NCBI GenBank assembly: GCA_013002205.1
Contig: JABDKN010000163.1
Location: 1-48,707, forward strand
Origin: Granulosicoccus sp.
Lineage (GTDB): Bacteria > Pseudomonadota > Gammaproteobacteria > Granulosicoccales > Granulosicoccaceae
Direction: 5' to 3'
Length of the DNA: 48,707 nucleotides
The notes under the pieces were generated by a model that saw only the letters and a list, made by a program, of their open reading frames with translations, was not told the origin of the DNA and ran no database searches. Below are positions 15,641 to 38,779 of this stretch, in pieces. The position numbers and the translations under genes are program-made. Within the stretch, counting starts at the first letter, position 1. Every line of letters begins with the position of its first letter.

Positions 15641-17491
15641 ATGGCTGTAGAGGCCCCAGAACGACCTCATTCATCACGGCGCACTGCGCCGCCGGATGTC
15701 CACACCGGGGTCCCAGGTTGGTTATCCTGGCTACAGCCGTTGCTTCCCGCGGGTGACTGGATCGGTGTGATAGTGAAGAGGCAAGGCGCCGCCGGAATCA
15801 GCTACAGCACGCACCCTTTTCCGGTGGGATCCAGTGCCCCTGCGGCTGCCATGCTGGTCGCAAGAAAGGTAATGGCTTCAGGGCGCGTTCTGTCGGTGAG
15901 GTTGAACGGGTCTGCGGGCACCGGCAAGGTGCTGCTGGCCATACCGCTGTCTTTTACTTCGCAGCCAGTCGATCACGTCCTGGTATTCAGTGGTCCATCA
16001 CTGCCTGCTGAACAACGCGAGTCCTGTATCAGGCTGTGCCGCTGGGCCAGCGCCTGGCTGCATTCGCCGCCACCATCCGGCAACGCGACAAACGGCCTGT
16101 CGCTCGCTTCCCTGCTGACACAACCGACGGCGCTCTCGGTGGCCATGGCCATGGTCAATACCTTGAAACTCGAATATGCCTGTCGGCGGGTATCACTGGC
16201 AGTCCGGCGTCCCGGATCGTCAGGATTGCACCTGATGGCGATGTCTGACCAGTCCGGTATCGATCAGCGCAGGGTGTTGGCCTGCCAGATCGTAGCGGCC
16301 ATGCAGGAGATGCTCGACGCTGGCGCACCACGCGCATTCCACGGTCGCCTGACTGATGCGCGCTCGGATCGTTTTCCCGAGTGTTTGCGCCTGTTCGAGG
16401 ATCAGGGGCGTTTGCCGTCGTTTGCCTGTGTGGTTGCCGAGTCCGCGAAGGGACTGTCCATAGAAGGCTTGCCACCTCCGGAGGCCACCGTGGTGGTGAT
16501 TCTCCTGGAACATGCGCCCGATCTGCTGCCTGGTCCTGCGCAAAGGACAGCCATCGAGGAGTTGGTAGAGCCTGCCTGTCGCCTGCTGATCGGCAGGCTT
16601 CGAGAGCAGACCAGTCTCCTGCGACGATTACGGGAGAAAACGTGCCTGTGGTTGAATGCTACTTACCTGCGTTCTCTGACAAACAGGCAGCTGGTGTACG
16701 CGTTGTCCGCTCTGCTCGCCGTCGGGGTACTCGTGTGGCCTGTACCCCAACGTATCAGTGCACGCGTCATGATCGAAGCGCGGGACCTGCAGGTACTGGT
16801 TGCGCCACAGGCTGGATTCATCGCCTCGTCACATGCGCGCGCCGGGGACCGCGTCGCCAAAGGTCAATTGCTGGCCACACTGGACGACCAGGATCTTACT
16901 CTGGCGGTCAGCAAGTGGCACAGCGAGGCAACCAAGAACAGGCAGGCGCTGAATATGGCGCTTGCATCACGTGATCGGGTGGAGCTTGGCAGGTTGCGGG
17001 CTGATGCCGAACGCATAGCCGCAGAACAGTCGCTGGTCGAGAGGCAATTGACCCGCGCCCGCCTGCGCGCACCATTCGACGGCGTTGTGCTCAGCGGAGA
17101 CCTGAGCCAGCAGCTGGGATCATCTGTCGTGCAGGGGGACACGCTGTTTACAGTCGGTTCTACGGATGCCTATCGTCTGATACTGGACGTGGATGAGAGG
17201 GATGTGGGACTGGTCAGCTCCGGTCAGCTGGCCCGTGTTCGTCTGGCAGCACTACCGAATCGCACCTGGCAGGCCAGGGTGGAGGCTGTACTTCCGGTTG
17301 CCACTGACACAGAGGATGGGATTGTCTTTCAGGTACCGGCGCGTCTCGATGAGGCGACAGATGTCGTGCGTCCGGGTATGGAAGGCGTTGCCAAACTGCA
17401 GGTCGGCACTCGATCGCTGGTATGGGTGTACACACGACGCTTGCGCGAGACGGTGAAACTGTGGTTCTGGCACCTGGGATTGATCCGTTGA
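15641..17491 (+). CDS. Membrane-fusion adaptor with large cytoplasmic N-terminal domain (HlyD family)
   Basis: 616 residues from the ATG at 15641. The first 350 residues have no signal or membrane segment and look like a cytoplasmic sensory domain, GAF-like in general arrangement, though I cannot prove the fold. One membrane helix follows at about 351-369. The last 245 residues are a periplasmic HlyD/RND-type adaptor: lipoyl half [31 protein letters not shown], a short alpha-hairpin, then [31 protein letters not shown] and a beta-barrel domain. It is the first gene of a three-gene unit; the next start follows after one base. An adaptor fused to a cytoplasmic domain suggests signal-linked export. 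Confidence 0.82.
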
Positions 17492-17492
17492 C

Positions 17493-19628
17493 GTGAACGA
17501 GCAAAGCCCCTCGCATTGGCAGAGTGTGTGCCGGCTTTGTCCGCAACAGGTCAACGGTGTGCAGTATCAGGATCGCATGGTGCGGGGCGAACCGTGGACC
17601 TTCGTGCACAGTGAAGTGACGGGTCAGCATGTCAGGATCAACGGTATCAACAGGCAGGTGGTGAGCTTGCTGGATGGGTGCTCTGCGGTCGAGCAGCTGC
17701 TGGAAATGGTGTCCCCCGAGTCTTGCGACGACGAAAAAGAAGCGCTTGCGCTGGGCTTGCTGGCACTTGCCAGCTACGGGCTGATCAGTCTGAACACCCC
17801 CGCCGCTCAAAGTCAGCTGCAGCAGCAGGCAGCCGAATCGAGCCGCTGCAGGGCACGAGCATGGCATAACCCCCTGGCCATACGCCTTCCACTGATGGAT
17901 CCGGACGCATGGCTGGAGAGGATCGATCGAGCCTGTCGGGGGGTATCGGTCGGTGCCCTGGTCAAGATTGCAGTGAGCCTGATTCTGTCAGCCCTGCTCG
18001 TCGCCGCATTGCATACGCGGGAACTGGCGGACCAGATCGCATTCATTGCGCGAACACCGCAACAGTGGTGGCAGATGATCGTGTTGTATCCGCTGCTGAA
18101 ATGTATTCACGAGTTTGCGCACGCAATGCTGGTCAAGAGGTTTGGCGGATCGGTACATGAGGTGGGCATTACTCTGCTGGTGCTGATGCCGGTTCCTTAC
18201 CTGGACGCATCAGACAGTTGGCGACTGGAGAGTCGCCGGCAGCGAATTCTGGTCAGCGCGGCGGGCATGCTGGCCGAAGGGGCAGTCGCTGCGCTCGGAC
18301 TGTTCACCTGGCTGCTTGTCGAGCCGGGTGTGCTCCATGACATGGGTTTCGCGCTGGCGTTGACCGGTTCTGTATCGACGTTGCTGTTCAATGCCAATCC
18401 ACTGCTGAAATTTGACGGTTACCAGATTCTGCAGGACACCATCGACATCCCTGATCTTGCACCCAGGGCAAGCCGTTATCTGCGTTATCTGTTCAGACGC
18501 CATGTCCTGGGTATCAGAGCGGCCAGCTCTCCGGTGTCGGCCAGCGGTGAACGGCGCTGGTTTATCGCGTATGGCCTGTCCGCTGGTGTATACCGCTGGG
18601 TACTGACGTTGAGTATTGCTCTGTATCTGGCTACGCGTTTTCCAATCCTGGGTTCGCTACTGGCGCTCTTCGCCCTCTTCCAGCTCATCGTCAGGCCTGT
18701 AATCCGAGCCATCGCCTACCTGGCACGCTCCCCCGAACTGCAGGATCGCCGGTCTACAGCCGCACTGGTGTCCGGTATCGTTGCCAGCACGTTGATCGCA
18801 ATCTTCCTGCTGGTACCTGCACCGACCAGTACCAGGGCACAGGGTGTGGTATCAGTGCCGTCACAGGCCAGGCTGTTTGCGCCGTATTCCGGCGAGATTG
18901 CCAGTCTCAACGTCAGCGACGGCCAGTTGGTAGCACGGGATCAGCTGCTGCTGACCCTGCGATCCCCGGAATTGACGACCCGGCTTGCCGTCACCCGCAG
19001 TGAACTCGATGTCATCGGCATTCGCTATCAGGCTGCCCTGGTCAACGATATCGGCAATGCGTCTTCGTTGCGCGAAGACCTGCAGGAGACGCGCCGGTTG
19101 TTGAGTACGCTTTCTGATCGGGTGGAGTCGTTGAAGGTGAAGGCGGGAACGTCGGGAACAGTGAAACTGGACTCCAGGCTTCTGCGCGTCGGGCAATACG
19201 TACAGGCCGGGACTTCCCTGGGGCATATCGTCAATGCAGATTCACTGCGAATAAAGGCTGTGGTCCGCGAAAGTGACATTTCACGGGTCAAGGCAGGAGT
19301 TCGACAGGTCAATGTCAGACTGGCCGAACGATTCTCGAAACCTCTGGATGCCAATCTCGTGCAGGAAACACCGGCAGCAAACAGGGACTTGCCCAGCCAG
19401 GCTATGGCCGGTAATGGTCTGGGCGGCATAGCTGTTGCATCAAAGCAGGACAGGAAGTGGGAGACGGTGGAGCCCGTGTTCCATCTGGAGCTGGAACTGC
19501 CGCAGGGTACCCGCGCATCCGGAATAGGAGGGCGAGCCTACGTTACGCTGACACATGAGGCTGAATCTCTCGGTAATCGCTCGTGGCGTACATTGCGGCA
19601 ACTGTTGCTCGACCAACTTGCCATCTGA
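17493..19628 (+). CDS. PqqD-like/M50 site-2 metalloprotease/HlyD fusion protein
   Basis: 711 residues, GTG start one base after the previous stop. Residues about 20-95 resemble a PqqD-type winged helix, with HVRINGINRQVVSLLDGCSAVEQL (shared with RiPP recognition elements). The membrane protease part has zinc motif HEFAH at 206-210 (His206, Glu207, His210) and NPLLKFDGY at 302-310 with Asp308 as third ligand, plus several helices between about 160 and 455. Residues about 455-711 form a periplasmic lipoyl/HlyD unit beginning near TRAQGVVSVPSQARLFAPYSGEI. The architecture resembles YydH-type peptide zinc metalloproteases. All catalytic residues are present, so cleavage of a membrane or peptide substrate is expected; the substrate is unknown. 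Confidence 0.85.
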   Translation: MNEQSPSHWQSVCRLCPQQVNGVQYQDRMVRGEPWTFVHSEVTGQHVRINGINRQVVSLLDGCSAVEQLLEMVSPESCDDEKEALALGLLALASYGLISLNTPAAQSQLQQQAAESSRCRARAWHNPLAIRLPLMDPDAWLERIDRACRGVSVGALVKIAVSLILSALLVAALHTRELADQIAFIARTPQQWWQMIVLYPLLKCIHEFAHAMLVKRFGGSVHEVGITLLVLMPVPYLDASDSWRLESRRQRILVSAAGMLAEGAVAALGLFTWLLVEPGVLHDMGFALALTGSVSTLLFNANPLLKFDGYQILQDTIDIPDLAPRASRYLRYLFRRHVLGIRAASSPVSASGERRWFIAYGLSAGVYRWVLTLSIALYLATRFPILGSLLALFALFQLIVRPVIRAIAYLARSPELQDRRSTAALVSGIVASTLIAIFLLVPAPTSTRAQGVVSVPSQARLFAPYSGEIASLNVSDGQLVARDQLLLTLRSPELTTRLAVTRSELDVIGIRYQAALVNDIGNASSLREDLQETRRLLSTLSDRVESLKVKAGTSGTVKLDSRLLRVGQYVQAGTSLGHIVNADSLRIKAVVRESDISRVKAGVRQVNVRLAERFSKPLDANLVQETPAANRDLPSQAMAGNGLGGIAVASKQDRKWETVEPVFHLELELPQGTRASGIGGRAYVTLTHEAESLGNRSWRTLRQLLLDQLAI

Positions 19629-19641
19629 AGGCACATAGAAC

Positions 19642-20559
19642 ATGAACTATGCTGATCAAATGCTAGTCGGACTACTTCGTTTAAAAGGCCTGCCCGCCTG
19701 TTGCACCGGCAAAGCGTCACTGCAGTCGCTACTGCTTGGTGCCGGATTTTTCCTGAGTCTTGGCACTCTGCTGCTGGGTGTGGTGCCCAGTTCACGTGCC
19801 TCACTGGAAGTATTGTCGGACATGGACTGCGTCGTCGAGCCCAGCGCGATGGTCGAGCTCGGGTCTGCCGTACCGGGACTCATAGCCGAAAGCTTCTATG
19901 ACCGTAGCGATTTTGTCAGCCACGGCACGGTGATGGCTCGCCTGGAGAGTGAAGTCGAACGTGTATCCCTGGCCATCGCCGAGCAGGTAGCAGGCAGTTC
20001 CACCGCCGTGCAGCTGCGCGAACTGACTGCCGGCTTCGGGCAGCGGACCCGTGACAGAAACGAGGAGCTGCTAAAGACGTCCGGTGTCTCCAGGCAGGTA
20101 GTGGACCAGGTGAGTACCGAGGCCCGGATCGCCAGTTTGCAAGTGGAACAGGAACGTGAGAGCCAGCGCCTTGCTGCACTGGAGGTGGCCCGGGCAAGGG
20201 CGCTTCTGGATCGACGCGAGATCCGTGCGCCGATCAGCGGCGCTGTCGTACAGCGATACAAGCGAATCGGGGAATACGTGGACAGCGAACCTGTCTACCA
20301 GATCGCGCAACTGGATCCCCTGCACGTAGAGGTCATCGTTCCTGTGGAGTACATGGGCAACCTTACTGCAGGCATGAACGCTGCGATCAGTATTGCATTG
20401 CCGCAGTTCGAGAATAACCTGTTGTCAGCCGTGGTCAGACGTATCGATGCAGTGGCTGATGCCGCCAGTGCCACCTATGGAGTTCGCCTGGTTCTGGATA
20501 ATCCGGACCTGAGCATTCCGAGTGGTGTGCGTTGCCAGGTTGATTTCCTGGCCTCCTGA
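19642..20559 (+). CDS. HlyD/RND-type periplasmic adaptor
   Basis: 305 residues: a membrane anchor at about 29-48, then a lipoyl half with SAVPGLIAESFYDRSDFVSHG, an alpha-helical hairpin (about 105-190) and RAPISGAVVQRYKRIGEYV with a beta-barrel domain, the plan of MexA-like adaptors. It starts 13 bases after the M50 fusion gene and is the third gene of the unit. No ABC ATPase, RND pump or TolC-like outer membrane channel is encoded next to it, so the three proteins must either use a remote channel or form a different kind of envelope complex. Confidence 0.88.
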   Translation: MNYADQMLVGLLRLKGLPACCTGKASLQSLLLGAGFFLSLGTLLLGVVPSSRASLEVLSDMDCVVEPSAMVELGSAVPGLIAESFYDRSDFVSHGTVMARLESEVERVSLAIAEQVAGSSTAVQLRELTAGFGQRTRDRNEELLKTSGVSRQVVDQVSTEARIASLQVEQERESQRLAALEVARARALLDRREIRAPISGAVVQRYKRIGEYVDSEPVYQIAQLDPLHVEVIVPVEYMGNLTAGMNAAISIALPQFENNLLSAVVRRIDAVADAASATYGVRLVLDNPDLSIPSGVRCQVDFLAS

Positions 20560-21064
20560 TGGATCTTCAGTGACCCTGGCTGAAATGATTCGTGTCTGAT
20601 CGTCTGCGTGGAGCAGGCTCGTTCAGCTGTCAGCAGAACAGGTCAGATCAGCCCGCTTGAGGGTAGATGATCGCGGGTTCATCATCCACGATCGATACAC
20701 GGCAGCGCATGGTCTCGGACCTGCTGCCGTGCGCATCCATCGAATCCAATGTCGCCTGTCCTTGATTTGTATCTGTCAGGGGCAACGGCCAGCGGAGCCA
20801 ACACTCTATTTGACGGAGATTGACCTGCGCGACACTGTGACCTGTATCACGACAGCGCATGTATCTGCTTCACAGATCACTGAAGTTCCTTGAGCGAATG
20901 CCGATTTCATGTGTTCGAGGCGGGATAAGTGCATTTGCCTGTCTGCGCAGGAATCGAATGGCAGGGCGTGAAGAATCGCCATCGGAACCGCAGGAGAGTC
21001 TATCGCGTGGCAAGCACCCAGAGAATGTTGTCCCTGCGACGGAGGACGCATTCAGGAGAAGAAC
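20560..21064. other. 505-base gap without a convincing gene
   Basis: This gap separates the HlyD unit from the histidine kinase gene. A 78-codon plus frame (20657-20893) and a 70-codon minus frame (20648-20860) overlap each other; neither has a good ribosome site, clear codon bias or known family, so I do not call them. A dyad lies at 20621-20639. The last bases carry the CAGGAG ribosome site of the kinase gene. The gap probably contains the kinase promoter and perhaps a small unannotated product. Confidence 0.5.
20621..20639. promoter_or_regulatory. Imperfect 19-base palindrome, possible operator
   Basis: GTTCAGCTGTCAGCAGAAC reads as GTTC-A-GCTG-T-CAGC-A-GAAC: both pairs of arms match, with symmetric A/A mismatches and a single central base. 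The central spacing is too short for an RNA hairpin, so a protein-binding site is more likely than a terminator. It lies 62 bases after the HlyD gene and 426 bases before the kinase gene. No regulator can be assigned. Confidence 0.3.
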
Positions 21065-24000
21065 ATGAACAGGTCGCGATTGAAGGCGATGTACAAGGCG
21101 CGGCCCAGGTTGCCGGCGCGGTTTCACATCACGTTCGGTCTGGCATCGGTCGTTACGTCGATTATCCTGCTGGCGAATTTTGCAGGATTTGTACCTAACC
21201 GTGAAGCGGCTATCCTGGAGGGCCGGCTCGCGTTGTCAGAAGCAGTAGCGTCCTCTACATCACTGCTGCTCGAGCGGGGCAGACTGTCGGAAATCAGGAG
21301 CAATCTGGAATTCGTCGTCAATCGCCAGGATGCGTTGAGCTCTGTGGTTCTGATGCGTGGAGATAACCTGTCGCAGGTTACGATCGGGGAGCCGGTCGAT
21401 GGTGAGCAGAATGCAATACGGGTTCCGCTGGTAAGAGGGAAAAGGCCCTGGGGTGAGCTGATATTCCACTTCAATGGTCTGGACTTACCTGGCTGGCTGG
21501 ATCGGTGGCGACAGTCCCCATTTGGCTTGATGACCTTCGTGGCACTGTTCTGTCTGCCGTCGTTCTATTTCTATCTTGGAAAAATGCTCAAGGAACTGAA
21601 CCCATCCTCCGCAGTTCCCGGTCGTGTACGCAGCGCACTGGATACGATCGCGGAAGCATTGATCGTCATCGACAGAAAGGGCAATATCGTTCTTGCGAAT
21701 TCCGCCTTCGCTGCCTTGAACGGCAAATCCGCTGAATCCCTGCTGGGCGTCCAGGCTGGCACGCTCGAGTGGCAGATGCTCGACGACGATCATTCGCAGT
21801 TTCCATGGCAGCTGGCGCTGGATACGGGCCTGCCAACGCGTAACGCGATGACTGGATTCGTAGATTGTGAAGGCAGCGTCAGGAAATTCCTGGTCAATTG
21901 TTCGCCGGTAACCGGTGCACAGGGCAGAGTGGGCGGGGTGCTGATCAGCATGGATGACGTCACCCTGCTGGAGGAGAAGGAAATGTTGCTGCGCCAGTCC
22001 ATGCATGCCGCGGAGGAGGCGAATCACGCCAAGAGCGCCTTCCTGTCCAACATGAGTCATGAGATCAGGACGCCAATGACGGCCATCCTGGGTTTCACGG
22101 AAGTATTGAAGCGTGGTCTGACACTCAGCGAGGATGAACAGCAGAAGCATTTGTGCACGATTTCCAACAGCGGACAGCACTTGCTTGAATTGATCAACGA
22201 TGTTCTAGATCTGTCCAAGATCGAAAGTGGTGCCATGGAGGTCGAGGCCATTCCCACGAATGTATGCCGGATTGCCCATGAGGTCATCAAGGTTCTCGAT
22301 GTCAAGGCGAACGAAAAACAGGTGGACCTGCAAATGGAACTGCTGTCGGATCTGCCGGAGAACGTAGTGACAGATCCAGCTCGATTGCGGCAGATACTGA
22401 CCAACCTGGTGGGTAACGCAATCAAGTTTACCGAACAGGGTAGTGTCACCATCGGCATGTCGTGCAACCGGGATGACGAATTGATAAAGATTGAAGTCGT
22501 GGATACCGGGATAGGCATGACTGCAGCCCAACAGGCATCGATATTCGATGCGTTCACGCAGGCTGATACATCGATAACGCGTCGCTTTGGTGGTACCGGA
22601 CTTGGTCTGTCCATCAGCAGGACGCTTGCCGAAGTCATGGGGGGCAGTATCGAACTCAGCAGTGCTCCCGGACAAGGGTCCACTTTTACCTTGACCGTAC
22701 CTACCGGTGATCTTGCTGGTGTGCCCATGTGCTCTGCGGCGCAATTGCTTGCAGGTATCGATGTGGTGGAGCAGCCCGGCGAATCGCACTGGGAGTTCCC
22801 CGAGGTGTCTGTCCTGGTCGTGGATGACGCGGTGGAGAATCGTGATCTGCTGTCTCTGGTGCTCAGAGACCTGGGTATCGACGTAACGACTGCCAGTAAT
22901 GGCCTCGAAGCCGTTGACCTTGTCGAAAAGTCTGCGTTTTCAGCCATATTGATGGACATCCAGATGCCGGTGATGGATGGCTACGAAGCATTGACTATCA
23001 TGCGTGCCAAGGGCGTCAAAGCGCCGGTAGTCGCATTGACCGCCAATGCAATGAAAGGCTACGAGCAGAAAATAATCGATGCCGGGTTTTCGCATTACCA
23101 GACCAAACCCATCGACCTGGACCAATTGGCTCGTTTGCTTGCGGGACTGCTAGGGGGAGTTGAGGTGGATGGTCCGAACACACGTGGCCAGACGGGGACC
23201 GGACTCGCAGCGGCGGAGCGCAGATCCGGATCGCAGCACGGGTATGCTTTGCAGGCGGCAACGCCCGCATCATCCGGAAGTAAGTCGACAGCGATACATG
23301 AGCCCGTCTACAACTCGCTGGCAGAAACGAATCCCAGGTTTCGACCTATCGTCGAACAATTCTTGCGCAAATTGCAGGATCAGCTTCAGGATATGCGTGA
23401 ACACTGTGATGCACAGCGCTGGAACGCGCTGGCGGAGCAGGCCCACTGGTTGAAAGGATCCGGCGGGACGGTGGGCTTCGACCAGTTATCAGCGCCTGCC
23501 AGATTACTCGAAATTGCAGCGATCAACGAGGATCGGAATTCTGCCGCACAGGTGCTGCAACAGCTGGAGTCATTGTCAATGCGCATGCGCACCGGTGCGG
23601 GGCATACGGTCACTGCGGGCGATGAGGATTCGAGACCGGACCTGCCGGATACGGGCAGCGTCTCACTGCCGGCGGCCTGTGGTGAGCGTCGCGTCACACA
23701 AATACCTGATCGTCTAAGCAAACCTGCAGAATCAGTCGATAGCCCTGTTATCAGTTCGTTGCTGGCACAGAATCCCAGGTTTCACCACATTGTCGAACGC
23801 TTCATCACAAAGCTTGAAGGGCAGATTGCTCAGCTGGAGTCTGCGTATGAGCAGAACGACTGGGATGGCGTGGCCGAGCTTGCGCACTGGCTCAAGGGCT
23901 CAGGTGGCAGTGTCGGATTTGACGGCTACACGCAACGTTCATATGCGCTGGAGCAGGCAGCCAGGGCACGCTCAGGTGCAGAGGTTCGCAGCAGTATCGA

Positions 24001-24073
24001 CTCCATTGTTCTCTATACCCGTCGAGTCATGCAGGGATGGAACGGCGCTGGTGTGCAGAGAAATTCAGCATGA
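21065..24073 (+). CDS. Hybrid sensor histidine kinase with PAS, REC and two Hpt domains
   Basis: 1002 residues. Two membrane helices (about 18-40 and 152-174) enclose a periplasmic sensor of about 110 residues. A PAS domain (about 190-305) follows, then the HisKA domain with phospho-acceptor His332 in SNMSHEIRTPM, and the ATPase domain with NAIKFTEQG, DTGIGM and FGGTGLGLSIS. The receiver has Asp631 in ILMDIQMP. Two Hpt domains carry His794 and His941, both in an (A)HWLKGSGG context. It is thus a complete phosphorelay protein, probably membrane-bound. CAGGAG precedes the ATG. Its TGA overlaps the start of the following REC-GGDEF-EAL gene, so the latter is the likely target. Confidence 0.94.
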   Translation: MNRSRLKAMYKARPRLPARFHITFGLASVVTSIILLANFAGFVPNREAAILEGRLALSEAVASSTSLLLERGRLSEIRSNLEFVVNRQDALSSVVLMRGDNLSQVTIGEPVDGEQNAIRVPLVRGKRPWGELIFHFNGLDLPGWLDRWRQSPFGLMTFVALFCLPSFYFYLGKMLKELNPSSAVPGRVRSALDTIAEALIVIDRKGNIVLANSAFAALNGKSAESLLGVQAGTLEWQMLDDDHSQFPWQLALDTGLPTRNAMTGFVDCEGSVRKFLVNCSPVTGAQGRVGGVLISMDDVTLLEEKEMLLRQSMHAAEEANHAKSAFLSNMSHEIRTPMTAILGFTEVLKRGLTLSEDEQQKHLCTISNSGQHLLELINDVLDLSKIESGAMEVEAIPTNVCRIAHEVIKVLDVKANEKQVDLQMELLSDLPENVVTDPARLRQILTNLVGNAIKFTEQGSVTIGMSCNRDDELIKIEVVDTGIGMTAAQQASIFDAFTQADTSITRRFGGTGLGLSISRTLAEVMGGSIELSSAPGQGSTFTLTVPTGDLAGVPMCSAAQLLAGIDVVEQPGESHWEFPEVSVLVVDDAVENRDLLSLVLRDLGIDVTTASNGLEAVDLVEKSAFSAILMDIQMPVMDGYEALTIMRAKGVKAPVVALTANAMKGYEQKIIDAGFSHYQTKPIDLDQLARLLAGLLGGVEVDGPNTRGQTGTGLAAAERRSGSQHGYALQAATPASSGSKSTAIHEPVYNSLAETNPRFRPIVEQFLRKLQDQLQDMREHCDAQRWNALAEQAHWLKGSGGTVGFDQLSAPARLLEIAAINEDRNSAAQVLQQLESLSMRMRTGAGHTVTAGDEDSRPDLPDTGSVSLPAACGERRVTQIPDRLSKPAESVDSPVISSLLAQNPRFHHIVERFITKLEGQIAQLESAYEQNDWDGVAELAHWLKGSGGSVGFDGYTQRSYALEQAARARSGAEVRSSIDSIVLYTRRVMQGWNGAGVQRNSA
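23330..23860 (+). repeat. Internal duplication encoding the two Hpt domains
   Basis: The first Hpt domain begins at NPRF (residue 756, base 23330) and the second at NPRF (residue 903, base 23771). The phosphorylated histidines are also exactly 147 residues apart. Both units read NPRF..IVE.F..KL and end in HWLKGSGG.VGF. The DNA at the two NPRF sites is still similar (AATCCCAGGTTT in both), so the duplication of about 441 bases is fairly recent or conserved by selection. Confidence 0.7.
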
Positions 24074-25911
24074 GTTCTGATCTGCACGAGGCGAACGGTA
24101 CCTGGCAGTCGGTGACAATCCACTCTGACAGGTACGATACGGATCTGCACGAGCTGGCTCGAACGCTGATCGCTGATGCCAAAATCATGATGGTGGACGA
24201 CGAAGAGCTGAATATGGAGATACTCCAGGTACACCTGGAGGAGGAAGGCTACCGGCGATTCGTATCCGTCTGTGACTCCACGCAGGCCATGCAGCGAATC
24301 CGCGAGGAACGCCCGGATGTCCTGTTACTCGATATCGTCATGCCGCGCGTGACAGGCTACGACATACTGAGCCTGATACGTGCCGATGAGAAGTTACGCT
24401 ACCTGCCAGTGATCGTACTGACCTCGGCAAACGATGCGCAGACCAAGCTCAAGGCGTTGAAACTCGGTGCAACCGATTTTCTGGCCAAACCGATCGATGC
24501 CAGCGAGTTGGCATTGAGAATGCGCAATACATTGACGGCCATGGCCTGGCAAAAACGCATGAGTGAAGTCGATCCGCTCACTGACTTGCCCAACAGGGTC
24601 TGGTTTACGCAATTACTGAGGCACAAACTGGATGACTGTCGTGCAGCTGGGTCCGTCTCGGCATTGATTTTGGTCAACATCAATCGCTTCAAATCCATCA
24701 ATGATTCACTGGGACCGGCTCGCGGAGATGAAGTGCTGGTCGCCTTCGGCAACATGATGCTGCAGTGTTTCAGGCAGGGAAAAAAGCAGGCGTGGTTCTC
24801 CAGCGATGTGCCAGGTGTGATTCTGCCCACGATATCCCGCCTCGACGGCGATCGATTCGCCGTTTACATGCCGCTGAGTGAACGTGGCGAGCTGGACGAC
24901 ACCTTGGCCAAATCAACCGAGACCTTGATTGATTCACTGAATACACCGTTCATGATCTCCGGTCAGCCCATTTACCTGGGTGTCAGTGTCGGGGTATCCA
25001 TACTGAGTCCCCAGACACAGAGTATCGAGTCACTCATCAACAATGCGGAAACGGCCATGCTGTTCACCAGGCGGCGCAGCGACAAGACGTTTTCCATCTA
25101 CTCCGATTTCATGGACGCCAAGGCTCGAGAGTTGCTGAGTATCGAGAACGGTTTGCGAACTGCTGTCGATAACGGCGAGATTTTCATGGTGTATCAGCCC
25201 AAGGTCGACGTCAAGAGTAACCAGATCAATGGCGCTGAGGCCCTGGTACGCTGGCTTCATCCGGAGTTTGGCCTCATCTCGCCAGTCAATTTCATTCCAT
25301 TGGCAGAAAATTCCGGCATGATCGTCTCCATCGGTGAGTGGGTACTGCGTGAATCCTGTTTTCAGGCCAGGCGCTGGATGCAGATGGGCTATGTTGACTT
25401 TCGCATTGCGGTCAACGTATCCATCAGACAACTTCATGAGCCGGATTTTATCGACACGGTCAAGAACGCGCTGATCGACAGTGCACTGCCGCCGGAATCC
25501 CTGATCATCGAGTTGACAGAGAACATGATCATGGAAAATGCTGAATCCAATGTGGTCAAGTTACAGAAACTAAAAAGCCTGGGTGTAAGAATTTCAATAG
25601 ATGACTTCGGGACCGGTTATTCGTCACTGAGTTATCTGCAGCGTTTCCCGCTGGATCAGTTGAAGATAGATCGCTCCTTCATCAAGGAAATACTGTCGGA
25701 AACCTGTTCTACACCCATCGTCAAGGCGGTGATATCACTGGCCCACGACCTCGGGCTGTCGGTCGTTGCCGAAGGTATCGAAACACCCACTCAACTGATG
25801 CACATTCGCCGGCTCAATTGCGAGGAGTACCAGGGATTTTTGTGCAGCAAACCTGTCATCGCCGCCGAGTTCCAGGAGTTGCTGGAGAGCGATTATCGGC
25901 ATCAGGCCTGA
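24070..25911 (+). CDS. Response regulator with degenerate GGDEF and intact EAL domain (c-di-GMP phosphodiesterase)
   Basis: 613 residues from the ATG at 24070, which overlaps the kinase stop as ATGA. REC domain at about 35-160 with phospho-acceptor Asp88 in LLLDIVMP and Lys in the AKPID loop. The GGDEF domain has lost its catalytic motif: it reads LDGDRF at 258-263, so no cyclase activity is expected. The EAL domain is intact: Glu390 in EALVRW, NVSIRQL, ELTENMI, IDDFGTGYSS, LKIDRSF and VVAEGIET. It should therefore hydrolyse c-di-GMP when switched by the upstream phosphorelay. Overlap and shared function point to one signalling unit. Confidence 0.93.
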   Translation: MSSDLHEANGTWQSVTIHSDRYDTDLHELARTLIADAKIMMVDDEELNMEILQVHLEEEGYRRFVSVCDSTQAMQRIREERPDVLLLDIVMPRVTGYDILSLIRADEKLRYLPVIVLTSANDAQTKLKALKLGATDFLAKPIDASELALRMRNTLTAMAWQKRMSEVDPLTDLPNRVWFTQLLRHKLDDCRAAGSVSALILVNINRFKSINDSLGPARGDEVLVAFGNMMLQCFRQGKKQAWFSSDVPGVILPTISRLDGDRFAVYMPLSERGELDDTLAKSTETLIDSLNTPFMISGQPIYLGVSVGVSILSPQTQSIESLINNAETAMLFTRRRSDKTFSIYSDFMDAKARELLSIENGLRTAVDNGEIFMVYQPKVDVKSNQINGAEALVRWLHPEFGLISPVNFIPLAENSGMIVSIGEWVLRESCFQARRWMQMGYVDFRIAVNVSIRQLHEPDFIDTVKNALIDSALPPESLIIELTENMIMENAESNVVKLQKLKSLGVRISIDDFGTGYSSLSYLQRFPLDQLKIDRSFIKEILSETCSTPIVKAVISLAHDLGLSVVAEGIETPTQLMHIRRLNCEEYQGFLCSKPVIAAEFQELLESDYRHQA

Positions 25912-25918
25912 ACGGGGT

Positions 25919-26710
25919 TCATCTGCGAAGCCGCTCAACGGGTACGACCCAGGGTACGGTTTCACATCCACTGATGACACTGACGCCGTAGACCGCCGCC
26001 AGGTTCTGCGCAGTGAGTACACTGGCAACTTCACCGGATGCCGCCATGGTGCCCTCGTGCATCAAATACAGACGATCACAATAGCGCGCTGCCAGCGATA
26101 AATCGTGCAGGACTACGATTGCCGCGCGTTCGTTCCGGGCAAAATCGCGCAGTAACTGCATCGTCTGCAACTGGTGTCCCAGATCCAGTGTGGCTATCGG
26201 CTCATCGGCGCACAACAATTCCGGTTCTGCCACCAGTGCACGCGCGAGCAGCACACGGGCACGCTCCCCGCCGGACAGGGTGGTCACCCGTCGCTGTCTC
26301 AGCGCATTACAATCACATACCCGTAACGCGTTTTCCACCGCCTCCCGATCCTGGTCCGAGACCCGACCCCAGGCGGGCAGGTGGGGTATCCTGCCCAGCA
26401 TGACCAGTCGTTCTACCGTGACCGGCCAATGAATTGCGCCTTGTTGTTCCACCCAGCTGATCTTCAGGGCGCGCTCGTATGCGCTGAACGTATGCAAGTG
26501 TTGCCCGTCCAGTTCGATCGTGCCGTGGATGTCCTGGTCAACACCTGCCAGGGCAGCCAGCAAGGTGGATTTTCCCGCCCCGTTGGGCCCGATCAGTCCG
26601 ACCAGTTCCCCGGCGTACACATCCAGCGATACCCTGGCAACCAGTCGTCGCGTGGCACGACTGATCGACACGGTCGTGGCCTGCAGTCTTTTTCGCGCTG
26701 ACCCCCTCAC
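25919..26710 (-). CDS. btuD: Vitamin B12 ABC transporter ATP-binding protein
   Basis: 263 residues of the FecE/BtuD/HmuV class. Walker A GPNGAGKST at 41-49, signature LSGGE at 145-149, Walker B with catalytic pair CADEP at 168-172 and switch histidine in VVLHDLS. The GTG at 26710 is chosen because it overlaps the permease stop as GTGA, and its ribosome site lies within the permease gene; an upstream frame to 27016 would lie inside the permease gene. Assignment to B12, rather than iron-siderophore or heme, rests on the operon order and the cobalamin riboswitch upstream of the first gene. Confidence 0.88.
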   Translation of the reverse strand: MRGSARKRLQATTVSISRATRRLVARVSLDVYAGELVGLIGPNGAGKSTLLAALAGVDQDIHGTIELDGQHLHTFSAYERALKISWVEQQGAIHWPVTVERLVMLGRIPHLPAWGRVSDQDREAVENALRVCDCNALRQRRVTTLSGGERARVLLARALVAEPELLCADEPIATLDLGHQLQTMQLLRDFARNERAAIVVLHDLSLAARYCDRLYLMHEGTMAASGEVASVLTAQNLAAVYGVSVISGCETVPWVVPVERLRR

Positions 26711-27729
26711 TGCAGGTACTGCCTGCGGCTGCGCAGGATGAGCAGGAGAAAGAATGGCGCCCCGACCAGTGCGGTCAATACACCGACTTTCAACGGTACG
26801 GGCAGCGCACTGTGCAGAGCGATGAGGCGCACTCCGATATCGGCCGCAAGCAGCATGACGGCTCCACCCAGCGCCGCCAGAAGTAGTAATTTTCCAGGTT
26901 GATGACCTGCCAGGGGACGCATCAGATGCGGCACGACCAAGCCGATGAATCCGATCATGCCCGTGGTCGCCACAGCGGCTCCTACACACAGGGACACGGC
27001 AATGAATATTCGCCACGACGTCATACTGGTATTGATACCCATACTGCGAGCCGTTCGTTCACCCAGTGTCATGGCATCCAGTGCTCGACCAGTTCCGCAC
27101 AACAGCAACCAGCCGGCGACTGTGCAAGGCAACATGACCCACAGATCCCGGAAGCTGCGATCGGATAGATCGCCGAGTGTCCACAGAACGAGTTCCTGCA
27201 CGGCGAAGGGACTGGGAGCCAGGTTGAGCAACAGCGACAGTGTGGCGCCCGCCAGCGCATTGATGGCCACTCCGGCCAGAATCAGCGTGCTCACTGAAGA
27301 ATCACTACCGGCCAGAAAATAGACCAGGCCGGTGGTCAGCAGCGCACCCAGCATACCGGCCATGGGCACGCTCTGCGGGTGCCAGCTGCCAGCAAAGAAA
27401 TACAGTGCCAGCACGGCACCCAGTGCTGCCCCGCTGGCACTGCCCACCAGTCCCGGGCTGGCCAGCGGATTCTGCAGCAGTCCCTGCATGGCGGCACCTG
27501 ACACGCCCAGTGAGATACCGGCAATGACTGCGATCAGTGTGCGTGGCAGCCTTATCTCGCGCACGATCACCGCCGTTACAGAATCCGGTTCGGCAAAGGG
27601 CAGACTGATCACCCGCCATGGGCTGATCCATTCCTGTCCCAGACATAGACTGACCACAGACAATAACAGTACCGCGACCAGAAGCAGCCATCGGGCAGGA
27701 TCAACTGCAGTGTCTGCACCCAGGGCCAT
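26707..27729 (-). CDS. btuC: Vitamin B12 ABC transporter permease (FecCD family)
   Basis: 340 residues with about ten helices, typical FecCD/BtuC. Conserved pieces are REIRLPRTLIAVIAGISLGVSGAAMQGLLQNPLASPGLVG near the start and GMIGFIGLVVPHLMR near the end, the coupling-helix area that contacts BtuD. It imports cobalamin or corrinoids across the inner membrane. It starts 24 bases after the lipoprotein gene stop and overlaps btuD. No periplasmic binding protein gene (btuF) is found in the cluster. Confidence 0.88.
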   Translation of the reverse strand: MALGADTAVDPARWLLLVAVLLLSVVSLCLGQEWISPWRVISLPFAEPDSVTAVIVREIRLPRTLIAVIAGISLGVSGAAMQGLLQNPLASPGLVGSASGAALGAVLALYFFAGSWHPQSVPMAGMLGALLTTGLVYFLAGSDSSVSTLILAGVAINALAGATLSLLLNLAPSPFAVQELVLWTLGDLSDRSFRDLWVMLPCTVAGWLLLCGTGRALDAMTLGERTARSMGINTSMTSWRIFIAVSLCVGAAVATTGMIGFIGLVVPHLMRPLAGHQPGKLLLLAALGGAVMLLAADIGVRLIALHSALPVPLKVGVLTALVGAPFFLLLILRSRRQYLQ

Positions 27730-27753
27730 TTACCTGGATTTCTCCCGTTGTGG

Positions 27754-29025
27754 TTACGGTGTGATGAACGCAATACCCTGCGGTACCAGGCTGGTGGCAA
27801 CGAACTCCGGTGCCAGCAGGCCTGTCGCCAGGTCTATCCGGTAGAATCCCGGACTGGCATCGTTGATGCCCACCCAGAGATGACCGTCCGGACCCTCGGC
27901 GATGGTCGTGATGTCGATGTTCTGCAGCTCCGGTATCGTCTCATCCGACAGGAGTCCGGTGGATGGATTGAAAGTGCGCAGGGAGGCGTCACCGAACGAG
28001 GCGTAGGTGACGAGATAGCCCAGTCCGGCATCGATGATTTCCACCTGCAGGAAATATCCCTGATTGTCGGTATCAGTGCCGTCGTCCAGTATCACGGAAT
28101 GCTGATACGTGGTCGGATCGATGACCTGGATGCCTCCGCTATGGAAATCAGTGGTGAGTTCGGTGCTTTCGAAGTAGTTGCCACGCCCGACCAGATAGAT
28201 CTGCCCGGTCGCTTCATCATACTGCAGAGATGTAGGATTGGTGACCAGTAGCTCGATCCCCTTGAGTCCGCCAGCACCCTGGTTTGTGTCTATCTCGGTA
28301 TCGGTAATCGTATTGAACACAGCCACGTAGGCACGCTTGTCCGGAACTTGTGCCTGTGGCAGTTCCAGAAGCCGTTCGATCAGCACGAACAGCTTGTTAT
28401 CCACGATGATGGCATCTGTCATGTTTGGCAGGTCGATGTCATAGGCACCCAGGTCGATTTCCCCGATCTTGAAGTCATCTGCCAGGGCAGCATCTGGATT
28501 GATGATCCACAGCTTGCTGGAACCTCGCCGGGTCAGGTACGCCTTGCTGCTGTCGACGAAGGCTATATCCTGGGGATTTGCGGACACGGTACCGGTATCG
28601 AGAACCGAATACTGATAGTCCACTATCGAGGTGTCCACTGCGTCAAAGCGTGTAATCGAATCGATATTGAAGCGGCCGATCTGATAGGGATGGACGCCAT
28701 CGGTATCGATGTCGATATCGGACAATGCGGCAGGGTAGCTACCATCGATGACATTGCCATCGGCCAGTGATATGCGATCGATTCGGCCGCTGCCGTAGTC
28801 CGCAGCGCGCGAGGCGACAAAGGCGAACATGCCTTCCAGTTCAGATTCAGAACCCAACGGTGGATTGCCGTCACCGCCTGTGTCTCCACCCGGCTGAACG
28901 TTGTCGTTTCTGGAGCTGCAGGCACCGAGTGTCACGATAAGTGATGCCAGGCACACAGTGCGGATCATCCCGACTGTGCGAGCCGGTTGGAATCTCGCCC
29001 AGTGCTGGAATTGTCTGCTGTTCAT
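27754..29025 (-). CDS. Predicted surface lipoprotein, beta-propeller-like (BtuG-like candidate)
   Basis: 423 residues from the ATG at 29025 (AGGAAAGGTG ribosome site; a GTG at 29034 would add three residues). The lipobox is LGAC with Cys36, after a longish N-terminal region. The rest is all-beta in appearance, with recurring short strands and Asp/Gly turns such as YLVTYASFGDASLRTFNPSTG and PDGHLWVGINDASPGFYRIDLATG, as in YncE-like propellers. It lies between btuB (92-base gap) and btuC under a cobalamin riboswitch. In Bacteroides, BtuG is a surface propeller lipoprotein that captures B12 for BtuB. The analogy is strong in context but unproven in sequence. Confidence 0.78.
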   Translation of the reverse strand: MNSRQFQHWARFQPARTVGMIRTVCLASLIVTLGACSSRNDNVQPGGDTGGDGNPPLGSESELEGMFAFVASRAADYGSGRIDRISLADGNVIDGSYPAALSDIDIDTDGVHPYQIGRFNIDSITRFDAVDTSIVDYQYSVLDTGTVSANPQDIAFVDSSKAYLTRRGSSKLWIINPDAALADDFKIGEIDLGAYDIDLPNMTDAIIVDNKLFVLIERLLELPQAQVPDKRAYVAVFNTITDTEIDTNQGAGGLKGIELLVTNPTSLQYDEATGQIYLVGRGNYFESTELTTDFHSGGIQVIDPTTYQHSVILDDGTDTDNQGYFLQVEIIDAGLGYLVTYASFGDASLRTFNPSTGLLSDETIPELQNIDITTIAEGPDGHLWVGINDASPGFYRIDLATGLLAPEFVATSLVPQGIAFITP

Positions 29026-29116
29026 AGTATTCACCTTTCCTGTTGGATGACTGATTGACTTTCCGGTGTTCGTTGCGTGACGCTAATCCGGGCAGCCTTT
29101 ACCCGGGAGTGACTGC

Positions 29117-31207
29117 TCACAGTATGCGTGACACTGAGAGTGCCCAGGTACGACCTGGTCGGGGAAATCCATTGAAATCCTCTATATTGTCATTGCCCAG
29201 ATTGTAAATGCCGATGCTGGCCGTCCAGCGTCCATTGCGCCATTCAAGCCCGATCGCATGTTGTTGACTGTTGCTTGCAGGCAGGAGATTCGCCCGGTCA
29301 TAGAATCGCTTTTTCAGAATCTCCAGCTCGTACCACATGCTGGTTCGCAGGACTTGATATTGCACTCTGGTGAACCATGCAAGCTGTGCTTCCCCGGGTA
29401 GCAACTTGTCCAGGAAGCCATCGACTTTCTCGCGACTCCGAGGTGACTGCCATGTCAGATTGCTGTGAACGTCAAGCCGCGGCAATACTGTCAAAAAGGC
29501 GGACAGTTCCAATCCGATGACGCGAGCTGCTCCTGCATTCGTCGGCCGCCCTACACCCTGAGCGTCGAATGCGGTCACAATCAGTTCATTGCGTTCGCTG
29601 CCGAATACGGTGCCAATGAGCCTCATCGAGTCTCTCCGCCACTCTATGCCTGCATCGATGTTCAGGCCTTCTTCGGCTTGCAGTTGCGGATTTCCGCTGA
29701 TCAGGCCGATCGAACCGTACAGTTCTCCAAACGTGGGCTCGCGATAGAAACTGCCAGCGTTGGCGGTCAGGGTGAGATGCGACGAAGGACGATACAGCAA
29801 CCCGAATTGCAGTCCACTGCGAGACGCCTTCGTCGTCGTGTCGTTGGCCTGTGACGAGTTTGCCCGGGTTCCGGACACGTCACTCGATTGCCATCGTACT
29901 GCAGGCGTGAGCGACAGGGTGTCTCCGCGGTTGAACCAGTTGTACTCGATGATGCCCACGCCGCTCAATCGCCGTACGTCGAAGTTGACGGAATCGTCCA
30001 GCCTGTTGACCGAATCGATATCCTCACGACGGATCTCAAGCGAAAGGCCCAGCGTCGCGGAGTCAGCCAGGTATTCCCAGTAGGTTTTCGCTCCCAGTGT
30101 GCGGGTCTGGTTGTCCGTATCCTGTGCCCCAAGGCCGACCTGACTCAGGGTGTCACGAAAGCGTGCATCGTCTTCATGCCAGAAGATACTGTGTCGGGAG
30201 TTCCAGTTCCCGATGGCATCCAGCACCTGGGACACCTGGAGCTGGCTGGTCTGCGTCGCGAAATCAGACATGTTGTCCGGGTTGTTACGCCATTCGGGAA
30301 CACCGAGTTCACGATCCGCCACTTGTAATGTCAGATCTGTCCGGGCGTTTGCGTGCTGGCGATGTGCAGTACGCAGCAGCGCGGCCGTTCGCGTGACGGA
30401 CGCATTGTTGCGCTTCTCTCGACGATCGTCTTCCGGATTGAGTGGTGTGCCGTTGTCGTTGGTGAACAGGAAATCATTGTCGCTCCGGCGGTGACTGACT
30501 GCGGCTGCGGATTCCCATCGACCCTGCCGACTTTGATGTGACAGTGACAGTTCTCTCTGAGACAGACTGCCTACACCCAGACGGAGGCGTGTCGAGGGCT
30601 CGGCGCCCGATTGCAGCGTCTTCAGATTCACCGCACCGCCGATCGCCCCGTGCCCCAACTGCATGGGACTACTGCCGCGATAAATGTCAACGGAATCGAG
30701 ATTGAGCATCTCCAGTGTGGAAAAATCGATTACCGGGTTGCCACCATTGTTGAGCAGGATGCCATCGAGGTAGACTCCGGTCTGTTCACCGCTGGCAGCG
30801 CGGATGGTGATGCTTGAAAAGCTGCCGAACCCTCCTGCCTGACGATTCTGCACGCCGGCTTCATGAGAAATGACAGCCGCCAGGGAACTGGTCGTTCCCT
30901 GCAGGGTGGTTCGGACGAGCCGGCTGTGACTGGCACTTGTCCCCTGGTCGATGATGTCACCCGTGCGCAGCGGTGATCCACCCACGGCTTCCAGCGTGTG
31001 CAGTTGCGTGGCGCTGATCCCTTGGGCCACGGTGGTGGATGAGGATGAGTCGCCAGTGGTAACCGTTGCCTGCAGCGGCGTAGCTGCCAGGCAAGGGCTT
31101 ACCCATACCGACGCCAGAGTGAACAGCAGGATGCCGGCTGGCAGGGTGATGAAGCCCCGGAGCGGTTGATCGTCTGTGGTCTGGCTGTTCGAAAGACAGG
31201 AACGCAA
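29117..31207 (-). CDS. btuB: TonB-dependent vitamin B12 receptor
   Basis: 696 residues from a TTG start at 31207. A signal peptide ends near CLA-ATP. The plug domain contains ISHEAGVQNRQAGGFGSFSSITIRAASGEQTGVYLDGILLNNGG and VDIYRGSSPMQLG, typical of BtuB/siderophore receptors. The barrel follows, ending in WALSVSRIL, where most family members end with an aromatic residue. The upstream 31208-31530 region carries a cobalamin riboswitch, which identifies the substrate class. No alternative ATG lies in this frame near the start, and GAGG sits 10 bases before the TTG. The next genes downstream are the lipoprotein, btuC and btuD. Confidence 0.9.
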   Translation of the reverse strand: MRSCLSNSQTTDDQPLRGFITLPAGILLFTLASVWVSPCLAATPLQATVTTGDSSSSTTVAQGISATQLHTLEAVGGSPLRTGDIIDQGTSASHSRLVRTTLQGTTSSLAAVISHEAGVQNRQAGGFGSFSSITIRAASGEQTGVYLDGILLNNGGNPVIDFSTLEMLNLDSVDIYRGSSPMQLGHGAIGGAVNLKTLQSGAEPSTRLRLGVGSLSQRELSLSHQSRQGRWESAAAVSHRRSDNDFLFTNDNGTPLNPEDDRREKRNNASVTRTAALLRTAHRQHANARTDLTLQVADRELGVPEWRNNPDNMSDFATQTSQLQVSQVLDAIGNWNSRHSIFWHEDDARFRDTLSQVGLGAQDTDNQTRTLGAKTYWEYLADSATLGLSLEIRREDIDSVNRLDDSVNFDVRRLSGVGIIEYNWFNRGDTLSLTPAVRWQSSDVSGTRANSSQANDTTTKASRSGLQFGLLYRPSSHLTLTANAGSFYREPTFGELYGSIGLISGNPQLQAEEGLNIDAGIEWRRDSMRLIGTVFGSERNELIVTAFDAQGVGRPTNAGAARVIGLELSAFLTVLPRLDVHSNLTWQSPRSREKVDGFLDKLLPGEAQLAWFTRVQYQVLRTSMWYELEILKKRFYDRANLLPASNSQQHAIGLEWRNGRWTASIGIYNLGNDNIEDFNGFPRPGRTWALSVSRIL

Positions 31208-31799: not shown

Positions 31800-32786
31800 A
31801 TGATGAACAAACGCGTACTGGTAACCGGAGCTGATGGATTCATCGGCTCGCACCTGACTGAGCTGCTGGTCGGCAAGGGCTACTCGGTGCGAGCTCTGGT
31901 TCAGTACAATTCCACCGGCTCGTGGGGTTGGCTCGAGGGGAAGGACAGGGCCGCGAACCTGGAGATCATCAGTGGTGATATCCGGGATGCCAATTTCTGC
32001 CGGGTGCTCACCAGAGATATCGATGTCGTATTTCACCTGGCCGCACTCATTGCCATCCCGTACTCCTACGTAGCCCCGGGCAGCTACCTGGATACCAATG
32101 CCAGCGGTACCTTGAACATCTGTCAGGCAGCGATTGACAACCAGGTCGGCAGAGTCATACACACATCGACAAGTGAAGTATACGGCACGGCACAATACGT
32201 CCCGATAGACGAACAGCATCCATTGCAGGCACAGTCACCTTACAGTGCATCCAAGATAGCAGCAGATGCCATGGCCATGAGCTTTCACCGGGCATTTGAC
32301 CTGCCTGTAACGATTGCCAGGCCATTCAACACCTATGGTCCGCGACAATCGGCACGGGCGGTCATTCCGGCAATCATCTGCCAGATTGCCGCAGGCAATC
32401 GGGAGATCAGGCTGGGAGACCTTTCACCGACGCGGGATTTCAACTATGTCATGGATACCTGCCGTGGCTTTCTGGCACTGGCAGAGAGTCCGGCAGCCGT
32501 TGGTGAGGTAGTCAACATTGGCTCCGGCAGCGAGATATCCATTCTCGACACCGTGGAGCTGATTCGTGAGCTGATGGACTCCGACACCCGGGTCGTGACG
32601 GAACAGTGTCGCCTGCGACCCGGAGCGTCCGAAGTGGTGCGACTGGTGTGTGACAACTCGAAGATCCGGCACATGACCGGGCATCAGGCGCAGGTTGATA
32701 TCCGTGAAGGATTGCAGCGCACTATCGACTGGTTGACAGAGCCGCACAATCTCCAGCGCTACAAGGCGGAGCTCTACCATGTTTGA
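31800..32786 (+). CDS. legB: NAD-dependent 4,6-dehydratase LegB
   Basis: 328 residues, extended SDR fold. Rossmann motif GADGFIGSH (near residue 11) and active-site pattern S/T-E-V-YG with YSASK (Tyr and Lys of the catalytic triad) around residues 120-155. The sequence opens VLVTGADGFIGSHLTELL and has SWGWLEGK, which resembles Campylobacter LegB, the nucleotide-GlcNAc 4,6-dehydratase that starts legionaminic acid synthesis. The next genes (neuC/legG, neuB/legI, ptmE) complete the link. An ATG at 31803 is equally possible. It starts about 270 bases from the divergent btu riboswitch. Confidence 0.9.
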   Translation: MMNKRVLVTGADGFIGSHLTELLVGKGYSVRALVQYNSTGSWGWLEGKDRAANLEIISGDIRDANFCRVLTRDIDVVFHLAALIAIPYSYVAPGSYLDTNASGTLNICQAAIDNQVGRVIHTSTSEVYGTAQYVPIDEQHPLQAQSPYSASKIAADAMAMSFHRAFDLPVTIARPFNTYGPRQSARAVIPAIICQIAAGNREIRLGDLSPTRDFNYVMDTCRGFLALAESPAAVGEVVNIGSGSEISILDTVELIRELMDSDTRVVTEQCRLRPGASEVVRLVCDNSKIRHMTGHQAQVDIREGLQRTIDWLTEPHNLQRYKAELYHV

Positions 32787-32815
32787 GCGGGCAGTGACAA
32801 TGGCAGGTGCTGCGC

Positions 32816-35073: not shown

Positions 35074-35127
35074 GCACCTGGATGACGACGCCGGGCAGCC
35101 GTGGAACCAACAGGAGTTTTCCAGCCC

Positions 35128-36171: not shown

Positions 36172-36183
36172 GTGTCAGGGCGT

Positions 36184-38673: not shown

Positions 38674-38779
38674 CCCTGACTCTCCTGTTCCCGCCGTGAA
38701 ATTCGCACGTGCTGACCGGTGTGATGCTGAGCATTTTTCCCGCTGCCCATCGCCTGTGGGCACGTCGACGACCAGTCAG

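Follow-up and report, generated by a model that had tools for sequence, protein, structure and literature searches.

The RREs form a class of domains that bind leader peptides and that are known from RiPP biosynthesis. The giants containing LEPR-XLL (NF012209) and DUF4347 (PF14252) rank among the largest bacterial proteins; they are so far known as domain names, and we have found no dedicated exporter described for them in the open-access literature. One published LEPR-XLL giant displays C-terminal RTX domains (PMC10868602), which suggests a type I export in some cases. The module described here shares with the type I systems of large adhesins (HlyBD-TolC, LapBCE) the HlyD adaptors, a TolC-family protein in sister loci, a giant repetitive surface protein as presumed cargo and c-di-GMP genes in the vicinity. 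However, it contains no ABC component, its inner-membrane part is an RRE-M50 fusion, often accompanied by a SecA-like ATPase, and its cargo mark is N-terminal (LEPR) and not a C-terminal RTX signal. As in the accessory Sec systems (SecA2) of Gram-positive adhesins, a SecA paralogue (E 1e-151) is encoded with a giant adhesin, but the present module is Gram-negative and includes adaptors and a protease. Like the daptide MpaP-type and YydH/LiaK proteases, it contains a membrane M50 protease, which differs from them by a fused HlyD adaptor and by a presumed cargo made of giants and not of peptides.

The window, i.e. the whole stretch of 48,707 nucleotides from Granulosicoccus sp. that was analysed, contains the module as three ORFs on the + strand (15428/15641-17491, 17493-19628 and 19642-20559) with intergenic gaps of 1 and 13 bp. 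The frame of the first gene (F1) is open from 15428; the start at 15641 is preferred because the homologues have about 614-645 aa and because the earlier start hits an acyl-CoA dehydrogenase gene of the opposite strand. F1 (15641-17491) is composed of a GAF-like cytoplasmic N-terminal region, a single TM helix detected by hydropathy and an HlyD/MFP periplasmic adaptor (Pfam HlyD_D23/HlyD_3, with HlyD_D23 at E 4.6e-23 to 5.6e-23). The GAF match is present in 6 of 18 homologues, the best E value for this family being 1.1e-9. F2 (17493-19628) encodes a protein of 711 aa which, from Pfam, alignment and predicted model, is a fusion RRE(PqqD-like)-M50 site-2-protease-HlyD. Its Peptidase_M50 match (E 3.7e-7) exceeds the gathering score of Pfam, and its C-terminal half (HlyD_D23/HlyD_3, E 9e-9) matches the MacA/MexA adaptors. 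F3 (19642-20559; 305 aa, HlyD_D23 E 4.8e-14) is the third HlyD-family periplasmic adaptor of the operon. The scan of the ORFs with Pfam detected no ABC, RND, MFS or TolC gene in this operon. The closest ABC genes (25919-27729) were rejected as partners of the module, since they encode a FecCD-type importer next to a TonB receptor; the whole region 25919-31207 consists of the genes of this FecCD-type ABC importer and of the gene of a TonB-dependent receptor, and is not the exporter of the module. Further along the window, a gene set of nonulosonic-acid type (31800-38763: sugar epimerases, NeuC-like, NeuB, nucleotidyltransferase and MptE-like protein) is probably involved in surface or flagellar glycosylation.

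The N-terminal PqqD-like/RRE domain of F2 (residues 6-105; 17508-17807, + strand) was delimited with an AlphaFold model and by structural alignment. F2 of the window itself has no Pfam PqqD match, and PF05402 (PqqD) matches 8 of 22 F2 relatives, with a best value of 2e-4. The top match of a family profile of residues 6-105 is the solved PqqD 3g2b (E 0.0034), the PqqD 5sxy and TfuB1 being ranked lower down. The AlphaFold model of these residues has a pLDDT of 95 and, when compared with VIA-align, gives Z scores of 9.7 with TbiB1 bound to its leader peptide, 9.2 with TfuB1 and leader, 8.8 with the RRE of PbtF and 8.4 with PqqD. Since slightly better Z scores (10.1-11.4) than with the RREs are obtained with winged-helix segments of GdmN, of NovN and of a methyltransferase, the match is to be read as one to the RRE/winged-helix class, in which the RREs are the small whole-chain matches. 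The nearest solved relatives of the domain include leader-bound lasso-peptide RREs and PqqD. The model thus indicates that the PqqD-like domain is real and is predicted to fold as an RRE. In contrast to the known RREs and to PqqD, it is fused to a protease-adaptor and would have as ligand the LEPR tag carried by a giant protein.

The zinc motif HEFAH (residues 206-210; 18108-18122, +) and the motif NPLLKFDGY containing the third zinc ligand (residues 302-310; 18396-18422, +) were located in an alignment of 22 homologues, among which His206, Glu207, His210, Asn302, Pro303, Phe307, Asp308 and Tyr310 are invariant. F2 displays the HExxH and NPxxxxDG-type motifs of the M50 site-2 proteases, and its membrane part is helical in the model. 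A preliminary description of this DNA had reported three tightly spaced genes, three HlyD-type units, a PqqD-like part recalling the RREs and an M50 protease with a complete active site. All of these agree with the data above, both for the predicted fold of the N-terminus of the 17493 protein in the AlphaFold and profile comparisons and for the catalytic and zinc positions, which are intact in the sequence. Its statement that ABC, RND and TolC genes are lacking holds for the operon of the window but not for the family, where TolC-family/OEP genes adjoin the relatives.

The neighbourhood maps reveal that the recurrent neighbour of the module is a giant cadherin/Ig surface protein (about 1,300 to 14,000 aa) with an N-terminal LEPR-XLL motif and usually a DUF4347 domain. 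The giant gene adjoins the module in more than 20 loci from many families, distant gammaproteobacterial families included (L107-L117, L141), and the typical order is F1-F2, often a SecA-like gene and F3, then the giant ORF. The giants located at modules have 3158, 4826, 6182, 8704 and 2167 aa in the genomes G023 and G015, and 1792 aa in the locus L008. On alphaproteobacterial plasmids of Pontibrevibacter and Thalassospira, the neighbour of the module is named "LEPR-XLL domain-containing protein" by NCBI. The N-termini of the giants consist of a basic stretch followed by a LEPR-type motif (LEPRVLYSADAL, MEPRVLLSADAL, LETRILFSADA or LEARIMLDGAA; LPVAEILEPRVLYSADAL is an example of LEPR peptide), then usually by DUF4347 and by cadherin, Ig or lectin domains. 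No classical hydrophobic signal was found in the LEPR N-termini of the module-linked giants. Several giants end with a conserved hydrophobic segment and the sequence LSSLPAWRxxDPLPVL, referred to as the C-terminal anchor.

Some particularities of these loci can be mentioned. In five alphaproteobacterial loci (L149, L151, L153, L155, L160), a gene placed between those of the giant and of the first HlyD encodes a DUF3467 protein of about 93-113 aa, possibly an accessory protein, chaperone or targeting factor. A conserved ORF of 72 aa without Pfam match (L129 8489-8707, L130 8617-8835, L033 6293-6511, L041 2649-2867) adjoins unlinked LEPR giants and lies upstream of some modules. In G023 (C1 550171-569570, loci L051 and L032), the giant beside the SecA-type module is split into two overlapping ORFs of 2493 and 4015 aa, which points to a frameshift or a sequence error. 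A LEPR match of G274 (C84 83224-83289, - strand) falls within a 14,112-aa open frame, among the largest candidate cargoes, that extends toward an F1-F2-SecA module situated on this contig at about 33.7-39.7 kb. The genomes G029, G030 and G033 have 8, 4 and 5 anchor-bearing giants for 2, 1 and 1 modules, respectively, so that one module may serve several cargoes.

The co-occurrence of the module and of the cargo marks was surveyed in 321 genomes from across the class Gammaproteobacteria. F2 is present in 50 of these genomes. A strong LEPR match (E below 1e-3) is found in 24 genomes, 22 of which also have F2 (3.7 expected, p 3.4e-18). DUF4347 is found in 38 genomes, 28 being shared with F2 (5.9 expected, p 1.3e-18), and the C-terminal anchor in 16 genomes, 15 with F2 (p 1.5e-12); all these p values are inflated by relatedness, although many families are represented among the genomes. 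In the family of the window, 31 genomes possess both the module and the C-terminal anchor and 4 possess neither (p 1.9e-5), and the numbers of copies of the two are correlated in the genus (rho 0.74). Among the DUF4347-positive genomes, LEPR is encoded in the same ORF in 21 of 28 genomes with F2, whereas this is the case in none of 10 genomes without F2 (p 4e-5), which argues that LEPR rather than DUF4347 tracks the module. DUF4347 was rejected as export mark, since none of the DUF4347 proteins read from five F2-less genomes contains LEPR and 3 of the 5 have signal-peptide-like N-termini. No cargo mark was detectable in 15 of the 50 F2-positive genomes, where most F2 matches are weak, divergent or fragmentary. 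F2 is multi-copy in the genus, with three copies in the genome of the window and seven in G023, and matches are found in 38 of 57 related genomes; the module is thus far from a chance arrangement.

The sister loci contain additional parts. In many copies, the gene located between F2 and F3 encodes a SecA-like protein of 665-703 aa (E 1e-151 to SecA models) with Walker A and mostly DEAD motifs. As this gene is absent from the loci of window type, of E. coli and of Azospirillum type, the motor is not constant. A TolC-family/OEP gene, absent at the locus of the window, is present in seven sister loci (L034, L114, L121, L151, L153, L156, L158), whose hosts include Methylosinus, Thalassospira, Azospirillum and E. 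coli. No ABC exporter was found in the module of the window nor in those mapped sister operons for which an annotation or a scan was available. Related modules occur widely in Proteobacteria, and a compact version is carried by E. coli plasmids. The IncHI1B locus (L158/L162, NZ_CP060066.1 20836-38214) encodes, in this order, a giant of 3668 aa (DUF4347/Ig/cadherin, N-terminal ALESRQLFDGAA), TolC, HlyD, HlyD and RRE-M50-HlyD. Over positions 34-716, this last protein aligns with the family profile (E 5e-112); it retains the motifs HELGH and FMRFDGY and is carried by 24 of the 5426 complete E. coli genomes. The locus sits a few kb from a lac operon, and the M50-HlyD gene of this type is also located on Citrobacter, Hafnia and Kosakonia plasmids. 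The only current annotations of the widespread F2-type fusions are "PqqD family peptide modification chaperone" and "HlyD family protein".

Taken with the linkage and the co-occurrence, these observations make it fairly probable that F1, F2 and F3 provide the inner-membrane and periplasmic core of a complex dedicated to exporting and processing the giant surface proteins of the LEPR-XLL/DUF4347 type. The putative joint function of the three products is well supported by the genomic context. The preliminary description had proposed such a joint function in a new export or processing complex, which this context favours as a reading, and its guess that large adhesins lie beside the homologues was borne out by the giants. 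The small peptide cargo was not: what recurs beside the module is a giant protein, neither a RiPP precursor nor a modifying enzyme is a recurrent neighbour and, among the mapped loci of Gammaproteobacteria, no small ORF is recurrent. Its complex with two adaptors was also too small, since a SecA-like ATPase and an outer membrane protein of the TolC family are found in addition among the relatives.

In the proposed mechanism, the cytoplasmic RRE domain of F2 would bind the LEPR tag at the N-terminus of the giant, in the way that RREs bind leader peptides. The chain would then be handed over to the complex in the membrane and driven by a SecA-type ATPase, either dedicated where such a gene is present or else the housekeeping one, through a conduit formed by the GAF-HlyD, M50-HlyD and HlyD adaptors and by the TolC-family outer membrane protein, the transport being presumably directed outwards. 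The M50 site would cut the substrate, most likely near LEPR, which is common to most cargoes; a cut at the hydrophobic segment of the C-terminus, which only some of them have, is less likely. This segment was rejected as the universal M50 substrate because it was found in only 16 of the 321 genomes and not in the giants of E. coli, of the alphaproteobacterial loci or of 8704 aa, yet the M50 motifs are invariant. More tentatively, the whole may constitute a new class of Gram-negative secretion in which the RRE reads LEPR on giant adhesins and feeds these to an intramembrane protease-adaptor and a SecA-type motor, the three adaptors and the TolC-family protein serving as trans-envelope conduit; this class would extend across Proteobacteria, E. 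coli plasmids included.

The strongest competing explanation is that the giants exit by Sec or by an unlinked type I system and that the role of RRE-M50-HlyD is limited to trimming them or to anchoring them at the envelope. M50 is indeed a protease, the module has no ABC, RND or MFS transporter, the loci of window type are devoid of the SecA-like gene, the published LEPR giant has RTX domains (PMC10868602), and the C-terminal hydrophobic segment with LPAWRxxDPLPVL of some giants could be both an anchor and an S2P substrate. We nevertheless regard this explanation as unlikely, since the LEPR N-termini of the linked giants lack a classical hydrophobic signal, the genes for the TolC-family protein, three adaptors and the SecA-like protein share operons, and trimming alone would leave the adaptors superfluous.

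The locus of the window has neither a giant nor a SecA-like or TolC gene, which speaks against the export reading. In the window, the gene of a hybrid sensor kinase (F4, 21065-24073, +; 2 TM, PAS, HisKA, HATPase, REC and 2 Hpt) begins 505 bp after F3 and precedes that of a REC-GGDEF-EAL response regulator (F5, 24037-25911, +), both identified by domain search and recurrence. In the orthologous locus L008, the giant is located exactly between F3 and the hybrid sensor kinase, a position that corresponds to the gap 20560-21064. A cargo remnant in this gap was rejected: the search of nine giants by tblastn against 20401-21200 gave a best E of 0.008, and neither tblastn nor blastn detected anything past the end of F3. 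The window copy could be a decaying orphan that has lost its cargo and no longer works, as the comparison with L008 suggests. This is improbable, because the three ORFs are intact with their catalytic motifs and because the same cargo-less layout with the same flanks is retained in other Granulosicoccus (L035, L037, L047, L054, L057, L058, L060). Moreover, the module of window type is the sole module of the genome G006, whose only anchor-bearing giant (L129; 2068 aa, LEPRVLYSAD, DUF4347) is on another contig among metabolic genes, with no exporter alongside. The genome of the window itself contains, on contig C166, a C-terminal fragment of a giant that shares 40% identity, on 349 aa, with the giant of the closest orthologous locus. 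From these two cases, the cargo of the window copy, no longer adjacent, is probably encoded in trans. Concerning the other modules of this genome, the second one (C93 continuing into C148) is arranged as F1-F2-SecA-F3-LEPR giant and the third one, on C297, is cut at F3.

F4 recurs by the module or its cargo in seven loci (L008, L029, L040, L047, L107, L113, L139), and F5 recurs as a conserved neighbour of the module. Either F4 and F5 or F12, a GGDEF-EAL protein whose N-terminus contains a membrane region, lies beside the module or giant in the window (21065-25911) and in L033, L041, L044 and L117. The recurrence of sensor kinase and GGDEF-EAL genes suggests a control of the module by c-di-GMP, through which the adjacent proteins would link the system to surface attachment.

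A RiPP or peptide system of the daptide or YydH/LiaK kind, in which M50 would mature a small peptide exported by the adaptors, is very improbable. The predicted RRE fold of F2 is compatible with it, and the daptide metalloprotease model NF041824 matches residues 23-400, including the N-terminal domain, at E 1.2e-47, that of LiaK (NF058609) at E 2.3e-10. However, the scores are far under the curated cut-offs (162.9 for 300 and 40.6 for 225, respectively), so that F2 is not assigned to the daptide or LiaK proteases, and in the mapped loci it is the giants that recur by the module, never a precursor peptide or modifying enzyme. Finally, a remnant of ordinary tripartite efflux, with HlyD adaptors and an incidental protease for small-molecule pumping, is scarcely credible and was rejected: the HlyD halves resemble the MacA/MexA/EmrA adaptors, but the operon has no RND or MFS pump gene, three adaptors and a conserved RRE-M50 fusion, and is strongly linked to LEPR giants.

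The module is not a type I system, given that it has no ABC gene. It is not an accessory Sec system either, since the SecA-like genes of the sister loci are below the curated cut-offs of all SecA2 models and no SecY2 gene, nor Asp or glycosyltransferase gene, was seen in the module neighbourhoods. A complex that is neither type I nor RiPP is the best reading. The parts are of known kinds; their combination and cargo appear new, although this priority is not certain, as our search was made in 5.39 million open-access papers. This search found no earlier description of the combination with its cargo, and no paper on PqqD with M50 and HlyD, on peptidase M50 with a periplasmic adaptor or on peptidase M50 with HlyD and SecA. 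The term LEPR-XLL appears in two papers, one of which (PMC10868602) merely mentions a protein of this type. No such system is present in the accessible portions of a 2025 RRE survey and of a 2021 review of tripartite systems.

For the LEPR-XLL/DUF4347 giants without Sec signal or RTX tail, we have found no description of an exit route in the open-access literature. The defined operon and the recognisable tag make the proposal directly testable, and the compact version on E. coli plasmids places it in a well-known organism. If the proposal is true, it would give a role to a widespread fusion, provide an HlyD/TolC conduit with a drive that is neither ABC, RND nor MFS, and extend the RREs from peptide natural products to protein secretion.
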